A stretch of DNA of 64,000 nucleotides from contig CAILHY010000022.1 in the NCBI GenBank assembly GCA_903834145.1, forward strand, positions 62,001-126,000, read 5' to 3'. The number at the start of each line of letters is the position of its first letter. Within the stretch, counting starts at the first letter, position 1. Source of the DNA: an uncultured Actinomycetes bacterium. GTDB lineage: Bacteria; Actinomycetota; Actinomycetes; Nanopelagicales; Nanopelagicaceae. The notes under the pieces are model-generated. The model was given only the letters and a program-made list of their open reading frames with translations, did not search any database and was not told the DNA's origin. Below, piece after piece: positions 51,755 through 63,725 of this stretch. A program made the translations under genes and the position numbers.

Positions 51755-52176
51755 TGTCCGCTCGAAGTAAAGCCCGAAAGCACGCTCTAGATATTTTGTT
51801 TGAAGCTGACATTCGAAACACTTCTGCTTCGGAAATTCTAACAACTCGGCTTGTGGTTGAAGAAGGTCCCGATGCTCGGCCGGTGCGCGATTACACGCAA
51901 AGTTTGATCGCCGGAGTTGCCGAGCATCGTCGAAAGATTGATGAATTGATTTCTACTTACGCTAAAGGGTGGGATATGGACCGCCTACCTGCGGTGGATC
52001 GAACAGTCTTACGGATTGCCATCTATGAAATTTTATGGGCGCAAGATATTCCTGATGCGGTGGCGATCGATGAGGCGTTAACTCTTGCTAAGGATCTTTC
52101 TACCGAGGAATCTGCGGCGTATATCCATGGTGTCCTGGGGCGAATCTCCTCCATTAAGGATGATTTAGCGCTGTAA
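51754..52176 (+). CDS. nusB: Transcription antitermination protein NusB
   Basis: RNA-binding protein of 140 residues acting with NusE in antitermination at rRNA operons: RKHALDILFEADIR start, DRLPAVDRTVLRIAIYEILW, and DEALTLAKDLSTEESAAYIHGVLGRI at the end. GTG start in the TAGTG overlap with efp. Its end overlaps the convergent bldD by 23 bases. Confidence 0.96.
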   Translation: MSARSKARKHALDILFEADIRNTSASEILTTRLVVEEGPDARPVRDYTQSLIAGVAEHRRKIDELISTYAKGWDMDRLPAVDRTVLRIAIYEILWAQDIPDAVAIDEALTLAKDLSTEESAAYIHGVLGRISSIKDDLAL

Positions 52177-52687
52177 TAAGAAATTTCTTCCTGCCGAGCC
52201 ACTGGGCGATTTCACCTTCGGTAGCGAAAGTAATCAAAGCTAGATTACTCAAGTCGGCTTTTCTCAGACTAAGAATTTCGCCGTTCCAATCAGAGCGTTG
52301 GCCAATGATCCATGCTAAAAATGTTCTGAGTTGGTTGAGTCGCGCATCGATTGGCCCTGCCTTGACCATGGCAACGGCCCGAAGGTCGATGACTATGCGA
52401 AATCCATCTTCCCCAGGAGCCGGTGAATTTTTCGGGGCGCAGAGCAGGTGAGAAAGCGGAACGTGATAAAGAGTGGCCAGTTCAATCGCTCTCTTTACGC
52501 TCAAGGTGCGATCACTCCTTTCGTAAGAGCCTAGAACTACAGCTTTGATTCGGCCACGAGTGAGACGTTCAACATCCCCAAGACTCCATCCATGCGATTT
52601 GCGAGTGAGTCGAAGACGTAAGGCAACATCGGTAATTGTTGTTTGTTCATAGAGTGGTTCTTCTGGTGTGAGAGCCTCTGGAGTCAT
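52154..52687 (-). CDS. bldD: BldD-like transcriptional regulator
   Basis: Helix-turn-helix regulator of 177 residues. The N-terminal Xre-type HTH (about 20-82) reads RKSHGWSLGDVERLTRGRIKA, then VLGSYERSDRTLSVKRAIELATLYHV, very close to Streptomyces BldD. The C-terminal part contains RSDWNGEILSLRKAD (131-145), which satisfies the c-di-GMP-binding signature RxD-x8-RxxD of BldD. It thus may respond to c-di-GMP, though no diguanylate cyclase gene is in this window. Position between nusB and pyrR is the one seen in other Actinobacteria. Leaderless start suggested by TAGAGT 6 nt upstream. Confidence 0.88.
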   Translation of the reverse strand: MTPEALTPEEPLYEQTTITDVALRLRLTRKSHGWSLGDVERLTRGRIKAVVLGSYERSDRTLSVKRAIELATLYHVPLSHLLCAPKNSPAPGEDGFRIVIDLRAVAMVKAGPIDARLNQLRTFLAWIIGQRSDWNGEILSLRKADLSNLALITFATEGEIAQWLGRKKFLITALNHP

Positions 52688-61836: not shown

Positions 61837-62541
61837 ATGTTATTCAAAAAAAGAATCATTCTCGCCGTGGATACTCCAGATTTTGATGTAGCACGTAGTT
61901 GGGTTGAAGCGACACAGGATTCAATAGCTGCTTACAAGATTGGCCTGGAGTTTTTTGCAACTTTCGGTTACGAAGGCGTTGCGCGGCTTCGTGAAATCAG
62001 TGATGCCGAACTTTTTCTAGATCTTAAATTGCATGACATTCCTAACACAGTTGCTGGAGCGGCCCAACAAGTCAGAAAGTTGTCACCAAAGTTTCTGACC
62101 GTGCATGCTTGCGGCGGGCGGGCGATGATAAGAGCTGCGGTGGAGAATGCACCTTTAGTGGATATTACTGCCGTAACAATTCTTACTTCGTTGAATACAA
62201 CTGATCTCCAAGAGATTGGTTTTGCGCAGCCGCCTCTAGATGCTGCAGTGAAATTAGCTGTTTTGGCACAGGAATCAGGCGCGCGTGCGATTGTTTGTTC
62301 TCCCCTTGAGATCCAAGGGATTCGAAGGGCGGTTGGCCCAGACATTTCCATCATTACTCCAGGAGTTCGCCCTGCTGATGAAGCCGGCGGGGATGATCAA
62401 GCCCGAGTGATGACTCCAGAATTAGCAGTCGCCGCGGGAGCGGATTTTCTTGTGATTGGACGTCCGATAACGCGTTTTTGGGTGCACGGTGCTCACGCGA
62501 TCGCCGAGCGAGCGCGAGCACTTGCCGCCTCGGTTAACTAA
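61837..62541 (+). CDS. pyrF: Orotidine 5'-phosphate decarboxylase, type I
   Basis: Decarboxylase of 234 residues producing UMP. The catalytic DxKxxD motif is in FLDLKLHDIPNT, the start RIILAVDTPD supplies the first Asp, and VVRPADEAGGDDQ-like phosphate-binding region GVRPADEAGGDDQARVMTP follows. This is the short type I form; mycobacteria and streptomycetes use the long type II form. 2 nt after pyrD. Confidence 0.96.
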   Translation: MLFKKRIILAVDTPDFDVARSWVEATQDSIAAYKIGLEFFATFGYEGVARLREISDAELFLDLKLHDIPNTVAGAAQQVRKLSPKFLTVHACGGRAMIRAAVENAPLVDITAVTILTSLNTTDLQEIGFAQPPLDAAVKLAVLAQESGARAIVCSPLEIQGIRRAVGPDISIITPGVRPADEAGGDDQARVMTPELAVAAGADFLVIGRPITRFWVHGAHAIAERARALAASVN

Positions 62542-62568
62542 AGAGTTTTTGCGAGATAGGTTTTGCCC

Positions 62569-63438
62569 ATGGCTCATCCACCGCAACTCACCCCAGAGCA
62601 GCGATCCGCGGCACTAGCGCAAGCGACGCTCTCTCGTCGAGCAAGAGCGGAAGTCAAAGGAGGCGTACGCGAGGGTTCACTCACAATTGCTGCAGTACTC
62701 GAGCGCGCGAAGAGCGAACCGGCCATTGCAAAAATGAGGGTTCTGGAATTGCTTGAATCAGTTCCGGGTGTAGGCCGCATCCGTGCCTTGGCAATCCTTG
62801 AACGGTTAGGAATATCTGTTCCTAGAAAAATCCAAGGTTTGGGGATTCATCAGAAAGCATCGCTTTTGCAAGAATTCACCACGGAGGTTCTAGGAAGAGG
62901 CCGCCTGATTGTGCTCTCTGGTCCAGGCGGGGTTGGTAAAAGTACCGTCGCCCAGGCACTGCGGAAGAGTTCAGATTTCTGGGTGAGTATCTCTGCAACT
63001 ACGAGAGAACCCCGTGCAAATGAGGTGAATGGGGTTGATTATTACTTCTTGTCGCAAGAAGAATTTGACCAGATGATTGCTCAGGATGAATTTCTCGAAT
63101 GGGCCTCATTTGCTGGCGCCCGCTACGGAACCCCCGCTAAGGCAGTCGAGAAAGCGCTGGCGCAGGGTAGGAATGTCCTTTTGGAAATTGAGATCGAAGG
63201 TGCACGTCAGGTGCGTTCACATAGCGCTGAAGCCATTTTGGTTTTCCTTGAGCCACCTAGCTGGGAGGACCTAGTTTCGCGCCTAGAAGGGCGCGGTTCT
63301 GATAGCCCGGAAAGGCGTGCACACCGCTTGGAATTGGCGCAAAGCGAACTCGCTGCAGCTAAAGAGTTCGACATCATCATCGTTAACGACCAGGTCGAGA
63401 AGGTAGTGTCAGCACTGCTATCCTTAGCGCGCTCATAA
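62569..63438 (+). CDS. mIHF (actinobacterial integration host factor) fused to guanylate kinase
   Basis: A single frame of 289 residues with two complete proteins. Residues 1-105 match m[32 protein letters not shown], and helix-two-turn-helix [21 protein letters not shown] (62-82). Residues 107-289 match guanylate kinase: P-loop GPGGVGKST (118-126), GMP-binding [19 protein letters not shown] and REPR lid, and DIIIVNDQ at the end. In most Actinobacteria these are adjacent genes. No stop and no plausible internal start for a free kinase: the only ATG/GTG near the junction (GTG 62910) falls inside the first strand. Start ATG 62569; TTG 62563 less likely. Confidence 0.9.
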
Positions 63439-63476: not shown

Positions 63477-63725
63477 ATGGACGGCATTACAAATCCACCG
63501 ATTGACGAACTTTTGGATAAGAGTGGCTCGAAGTACAGCCTCGTCCTTTATGCGGCTAAGCGTGCCCGCCAAATCAACGCTTATTACTCTCAACTAGGAG
63601 AGGGCTTACTTGAATATGTTGGACCACTTGTGGAGACACATGTTCACGAAAAGCCTCTGTCGATTGCTCTTCGTGAGATAAATGAAGGTCTTTTGACGAT
63701 CGAAAATCTTGAACCAACGGCTTAG
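63477..63725 (+). CDS. rpoZ: RNA polymerase omega subunit
   Basis: Small subunit of 82 residues assisting beta' folding: [33 protein letters not shown], and [22 protein letters not shown] preceded by AAGGGG. Position after gmk is conserved widely. Confidence 0.95.

Follow-up and report, generated by a model that had tools for sequence, protein, structure and literature searches.

mIHF and guanylate kinase encoded as one protein in Nanopelagicaceae, with further fusions in Microbacteriaceae and other lineages

The gene presented here corresponds to two separate, adjacent genes in Mycobacterium and most Actinobacteria. In Mycobacterium tuberculosis, the essential protein mIHF, which ranks among the ten most abundant proteins of this organism, is encoded in an operon mihF-gmk-rpoZ, and deletion of mihF is polar on gmk and rpoZ (PMC6155035). 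In Mycobacterium smegmatis, the essential mIHF was shown to be functional when fused to EGFP, PAmCherry or HaloTag (PMC10028186), and thus a large partner is tolerated. The second protein, guanylate kinase (Gmk), is a dimer and a target of (p)ppGpp in several phyla outside Proteobacteria (PMC6783271).

Here, we analyzed a gene from an uncultured actinomycete of the family Nanopelagicaceae in which both proteins are encoded in a single reading frame. The gene lies in a window of 64,000 nucleotides, the whole stretch of DNA that was analyzed, and the source genome is a draft of 33 contigs (1.75 Mb, 98.6% complete). A nucleoid protein and the sole GMP kinase, normally separate and essential, are thereby tied to each other in bacteria that rank among the most abundant of fresh water. 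A search of an open-access literature library returned no paper joining mIHF and guanylate kinase. Both domains belong to known families, and the fused proteins are presumably already present in the databases as guanylate kinases.

The fused gene, its two domains and its surroundings

Positions 62569-63438 of the forward strand form one open frame of 289 codons, which runs from the ATG at 62569 to the TAA at 63436-63438 without an internal stop; an in-frame TTG is found ahead of this start at 62563. Pfam assigned H2TH_5 to residues 34-103 (E 5e-22) and Guanylate_kin to residues 111-285 (E 1e-49). Both halves passed the curated cut-offs of their NCBIfam models with the scores given in Table 1, namely NF041260 (actino_IHF; residues 5-103, cut-off 60 bits) and TIGR03263 (guanyl_kin; residues 111-287, cut-off 160 bits), and the kinase domain is complete. 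NF041260 is typed 'equivalog_domain' by NCBI, a type that permits the match to be a domain of a longer protein. When the PDB was searched by sequence, the best solved relative of the C-terminal part was M. tuberculosis Gmk, and the N-terminal part matched S. coelicolor sIHF (4itq) and mIHF (6tob). An earlier note on this DNA, made from the letters alone, had read the frame as one continuous protein with mIHF at residues 1-105 and guanylate kinase at residues 107-289. This reading was confirmed, and the proposed boundaries deviate by no more than a few residues.

Table 1. Features of the fused gene and its neighbors (window positions)
Feature	Position	Strand	Remarks
pyrF, preceding gene	61837..62541	+	name read from translation
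mIHF/sIHF domain, N-terminal	62569..62880	+	residues 1-104; NF041260 116 bits, PF22525 78 bits, PDB 4itq/6tob sequence matches
GLGIHQ motif of mIHF	62836..62853	+	residues 90-95
inter-domain linker	62881..62898	+	~residues 105-110; lowest model confidence
guanylate kinase domain	62899..63435	+	residues 111-289; TIGR03263 225 bits
P-loop GPGGVGKST	62920..62946	+	residues 118-126; G118 P119 V122 G123 K124 invariant
rpoZ (RNA polymerase omega), next gene	63477..63725	+	

Upstream of the fused gene, a run of pyrR-pyrB-pyrC-carA-carB-pyrK-pyrD-pyrF (names read from translations) ends with pyrF, and rpoZ, coaBC and metK follow downstream. The order mihF-gmk-rpoZ-coaBC is conserved and is also found at the Microbacteriaceae-type locus L100; the fused gene occupies the usual actinobacterial place of mihF and gmk. 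A scan of the region for promoters and terminators found none and was uninformative. Within the window, the reverse strand at 52154-52687 encodes a small protein of the helix-turn-helix type, similar to BldD as far as its translation can be read, beside nusB and the pyr operon. No second copy of mIHF or gmk was found across the 98.6%-complete source genome, so that each is present only once, as part of the fused gene. HU is encoded elsewhere in this genome and was present in nine of nine genomes tested.

Occurrence, origins and loss

Searching related genomes for the same architecture, as the earlier note had proposed, showed that the fusion is not peculiar to the source genome; it has become fixed across most of the Nanopelagicaceae and in almost all Microbacteriaceae, and it has further origins. 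All 21 genomes of the source genus, which are independent assemblies, carry it uninterrupted. In the Nanopelagicaceae, it is full length and free of stops in at least 144 of 221 genomes (144 of 150 among the matches listed), including Ca. Planktophila lacus (L055) and Ca. P. versatilis (L093), whose complete genomes come from cultures; separate mihF and gmk genes were found in six of the 17 genera seen. The fusion is real.

A second fusion, very different in sequence from that of the Nanopelagicaceae, was encountered at locus L100 and belongs with the Microbacteriaceae (family f36). In this family, 110 of the 118 matched genomes encode both halves in one frame, among them Pontimonas salivibrio and a genome of only 927,303 bp, and the fusion spans about 80 genera. 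A third fusion occurs in family f34, where genus g103 (L151, L152) carries it; the sister genera of g103 keep the two genes apart or lack mIHF. The fourth comes from a single MAG of f50, a family that lies outside the class (L256). In the rest of the phylum mihF and gmk are for the most part two neighboring genes, in many cases sharing a frame and parted by a single stop, which agrees with the arrangement that the earlier note had given for Mycobacterium and other Actinobacteria. No relative was detected on viral contigs. Two further observations were made during this survey. Neither domain was matched in one 97%-complete Actinomycetes genome (G041), and in two genomes of about 7 Mb (G310 and G402; family f37, genus g77) a normal mIHF is found beside a short, divergent guanylate kinase match (L172, L173; 37-45% identity, open frame of 169-180 amino acids).

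A tree of six markers (carA, carB, pyrD, rpoZ, coaBC, metK) placed the fused Nanopelagicaceae, the Microbacteriaceae and genus g103 of f34 apart from each other, with separate-gene lineages between them. At least three independent fusions took place, and probably four or more. In the tree of the Nanopelagicaceae, the genera g5, g14, g9 and g12, all with separate genes, branch first, and the fused genera are united in a single group with support of 99/95. Since two genera with separate genes, g10 and g17, lie inside this group, one fusion followed by re-splitting is the simplest history, while several fusions are possible.

In four species of g17 (L250-L253), the TAG of mihF directly abuts the ATG of gmk in frame (e.g. 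RELKGR-TAG-ATG-QGRLLVLSG), a state that is a single substitution away from the fused one. This junction, nested in the fused clade, is likely either a re-split gene or a frozen intermediate. As the g17 arrangement is just one substitution from fusion, loss of the stop codon is the likely mode of fusion, and gain of a stop codon the likely mode of fission. A tolerated lost stop codon, which the earlier note had offered as the simple alternative to a functional link, thus fits the origin of the gene best.

The mIHF part can also be missing. In Rhodoluna and other Microbacteriaceae with small genomes as well as in genera of f34, f5, f39 and f33 (L233-L239, L207-L211, L246), mIHF was not detected anywhere in the genome while gmk is kept; among these genomes, G502 gave only a 20-bit mIHF match, far under the family cut-off. 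Rhodoluna lacicola has dropped the mIHF half and kept Gmk alone. Thus, mIHF is not universal, and Gmk works without it.

Conservation, selection and predicted structure

Among 52 fused proteins, mIHF residues R23, R26 and G69 are invariant. The mIHF columns R22, R25, K29, G68, R/K85, G89 and Q94 (M. tuberculosis-like numbering) are for the most part retained in separate and fused lineages alike, and the mean net charge of the domain is about +7 to +10. The kept basic residues and the HhH and RGLG-type motifs are thought to serve DNA binding. In the kinase half, the conserved columns of the P-loop, the GMP site and the catalytic positions are kept as in separate Gmk. For closely related fused Nanopelagicaceae, dN/dS was 0.054 in the mIHF half, 0.035 in Gmk and 0.064 in the linker; both halves are under purifying selection. 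NG86 estimates for the high-GC Microbacteriaceae were saturated and were discarded.

The ratio of mIHF to Gmk divergence is 1.5-1.7 in fused lineages as compared to about 1.07 in separate ones. This faster divergence suggests that the DNA-binding role of the mIHF half may be weakened, yet it is not clearly due to the fusion, since separate Nanopelagicaceae also reach about 1.4. A similar caution applies to mIHF alignment position 88, which is Arg in 47 of 52 separate proteins and another residue in 113 of 114 fused proteins (Gln89 in the source protein, window positions 62833-62835). As some separate f34 genes lack Arg88 too, a link between its loss and the fusion is unproven. A seemingly convergent, fusion-specific mIHF signature (acidic residue at 59, Ser at 82, non-Arg at 88) was dropped, because separate proteins of Micrococcales-type relatives likewise have an acidic residue 59, and those of f34 a non-Arg residue 88. 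The linker of about six residues varies between species in length and sequence; from the GLG motif to the P-loop, 26-33 residues were counted in 81 Nanopelagicaceae, with one outlier of 42.

AlphaFold2 models were calculated for the source protein together with 52 fused sequences and for a Microbacteriaceae protein together with 38. Mean pLDDT values were 94.9 and 91.7 and pTM values 0.72 and 0.67, respectively. In both models the linker block is a clear interior low point (pLDDT 73 in the source protein, block 101-110, and 65 in the Microbacteriaceae protein). Helices of the mIHF half were predicted at residues 9-35, 40-47, 51-54, 58-63, 70-79 and 93-104. With the kinase half as query, the top Foldseek matches were the M. 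tuberculosis Gmk structures 1z8f, 1s4q and 1znw (47% identity, TM (target) 0.86-0.88). We read the models as two rigid domains connected by a flexible linker, whose mutual orientation would not be fixed.

Interpretation and relation to known systems

In our judgment, this fixed gene fusion probably gives rise to one bifunctional protein of about 31 kDa, built like two beads and born by loss of a stop codon. That M. smegmatis mIHF puts up with large fusion partners makes such a protein biochemically plausible. The tightly spaced and co-transcribed genes mihF and gmk would have lost the stop codon between them, and both activities would persist in the single polypeptide, with nucleoid DNA binding by the N-terminal mIHF and conversion of GMP + ATP to GDP + ADP by the C-terminal kinase. 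Joined by a short flexible linker, the halves would act as independent beads and not as one regulated machine; the main consequences would be that the two are held at a 1:1 ratio and that the nucleoid carries the kinase.

Before such a protein can be assumed, the frame itself and its product have to be considered. A stop or frameshift hidden by a sequencing or assembly error is conceivable in a 33-contig draft, and the earlier note had asked about such an error. The same unbroken frame, however, occurs in hundreds of independent assemblies, complete genomes included. A base-calling accident can therefore be dismissed, and we rejected this explanation as having next to no probability. The frame might also yield two products, through an internal start or through proteolytic cutting of the linker, so that no fusion protein would act. 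We looked for in-frame ATG, GTG or TTG codons lying between 22 and 7 codons ahead of the P-loop. A subclade close to the Planktophila matches keeps an ATG at -16 from the P-loop, and the sole candidate in the source gene is a TTG at -18 that lacks an SD; a GTG three codons before the P-loop does have an SD-like sequence there, and its use would remove most of the first kinase strand. These codons mostly lack an SD, however, and in relatives they become TTG or are missing. A usable start is entirely absent from many fused genes: no in-frame start codon was found in this range in 23 of 31 distinct fused genes of the Microbacteriaceae and in 18 of 81 of the Nanopelagicaceae. In the Nanopelagicaceae genes with a candidate, its position, codon and SD vary, and SD-like 5-mers are present at 32% of the junctions as compared to 25% of windows drawn at random from these genes. 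As a general feature, a conserved internal start of gmk or a hidden ribosome-binding site was thus rejected, and a kinase made on its own by internal initiation, which had been considered earlier, finds no conserved start or SD to rely on. Because internal starts and SDs are missing or shift, the fused polypeptide is the only product consistently compatible with the sequences. Two products in place of a fusion protein are very unlikely in our view; cleavage in vivo or a minor product of internal initiation may occur.

If the fused protein is made, the question is what its mIHF half does. It could be a decaying N-terminal passenger whose DNA-binding role is lost or minor, with HU sufficing and only the kinase being of importance. 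The higher divergence that mIHF shows relative to Gmk where the two are fused, the changed residues R85/R86 in Pontimonas-type genomes, the small-genome relatives devoid of mIHF and the HU found in every genome tested would agree with this. Against it stand the dN/dS of about 0.05 and the key basic and glycine residues that are invariant from Nanopelagicaceae to Microbacteriaceae; furthermore, a useless domain of 100 residues should vanish from streamlined genomes. In view of the kept residues and the low dN/dS we do not favor mIHF as dead weight, and regard it as improbable. At the other extreme, the tether or dimerization of Gmk might link DNA binding with guanylate or (p)ppGpp metabolism, for instance in a bivalent DNA bridger that reports GMP, ATP or ppGpp. 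Independent recurrence of the fusion and its persistence across about 80 Microbacteriaceae genera speak for such coupling, as do the dimeric state of Gmk and its role as a (p)ppGpp target, since a dimeric Gmk would turn a monomeric DNA binder into a bivalent one. On the other hand, nothing in the sequence calls for such a link, which the earlier note had raised; the linker is variable in length and sequence, its low confidence and the modest pTM do not point to any fixed interface between the domains in the models, split genes occur inside the fused clade, Microbacteriaceae such as Rhodoluna lacicola do without the mIHF half, and adjacent operon genes can fuse without a functional reason. Functional coupling in this general form is slightly less improbable than the passenger, but still unlikely. 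A shade below it we place the specific version of a metabolic nucleoid protein that evolved repeatedly because it is useful, in which Gmk oligomerization makes mIHF bivalent and binding of nucleotides or (p)ppGpp alters DNA bridging, or DNA alters the kinase. The variable linker together with the apparent re-splitting and the losses of the mIHF half argues that coupling of mIHF and Gmk is not obligatory; the halves may be coupled facultatively.

In taxa with the fusion, proteins annotated simply as guanylate kinase may hold the only mIHF of an organism, and calls of mIHF absence can be wrong there. If the halves stay joined, a nucleoid protein and a metabolic enzyme would be present at 1:1 and the kinase would be carried on DNA; if coupling were true, chromosome packing would be linked to the guanylate pool. 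The fusion arose independently several times, was likely re-split at least once, and several lineages have lost the mIHF half; together these events constitute a natural replicated experiment, which makes it directly testable whether the tether matters. Nearly all surveyed Microbacteriaceae carry the fusion, and many of them are easily grown. The recurrence and the natural controls give the case an interest beyond that of a single lost stop codon.

Overall, when compared with the actinobacterial IHF proteins (mIHF of Mycobacterium, sIHF of Streptomyces; NF041260, PF22525; 6tob, 4itq), the N-terminal half retains the whole domain, the basic residues and the HhH and GLG motifs as well as the operon position before gmk and rpoZ. 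Unlike these proteins, it is not a free protein of about 105 residues, since its C-terminus runs into Gmk, and it has Gln in place of Arg88. The C-terminal half corresponds to bacterial Gmk (TIGR03263; M. tuberculosis Rv1389, 1znw, 1s4q) as a complete kinase with 47% identity in which the substrate and P-loop positions are kept, but it has no start codon of its own and carries an N-terminal DNA-binding domain. A further parallel is the mIHF-Gmk protein of the Microbacteriaceae, which shares the domain order, the operon, the single-copy state and a similarly short linker. It differs in being an independent fusion according to the tree, in its far more diverged mIHF half and in a P-loop that typically reads GPTAVGKGT.
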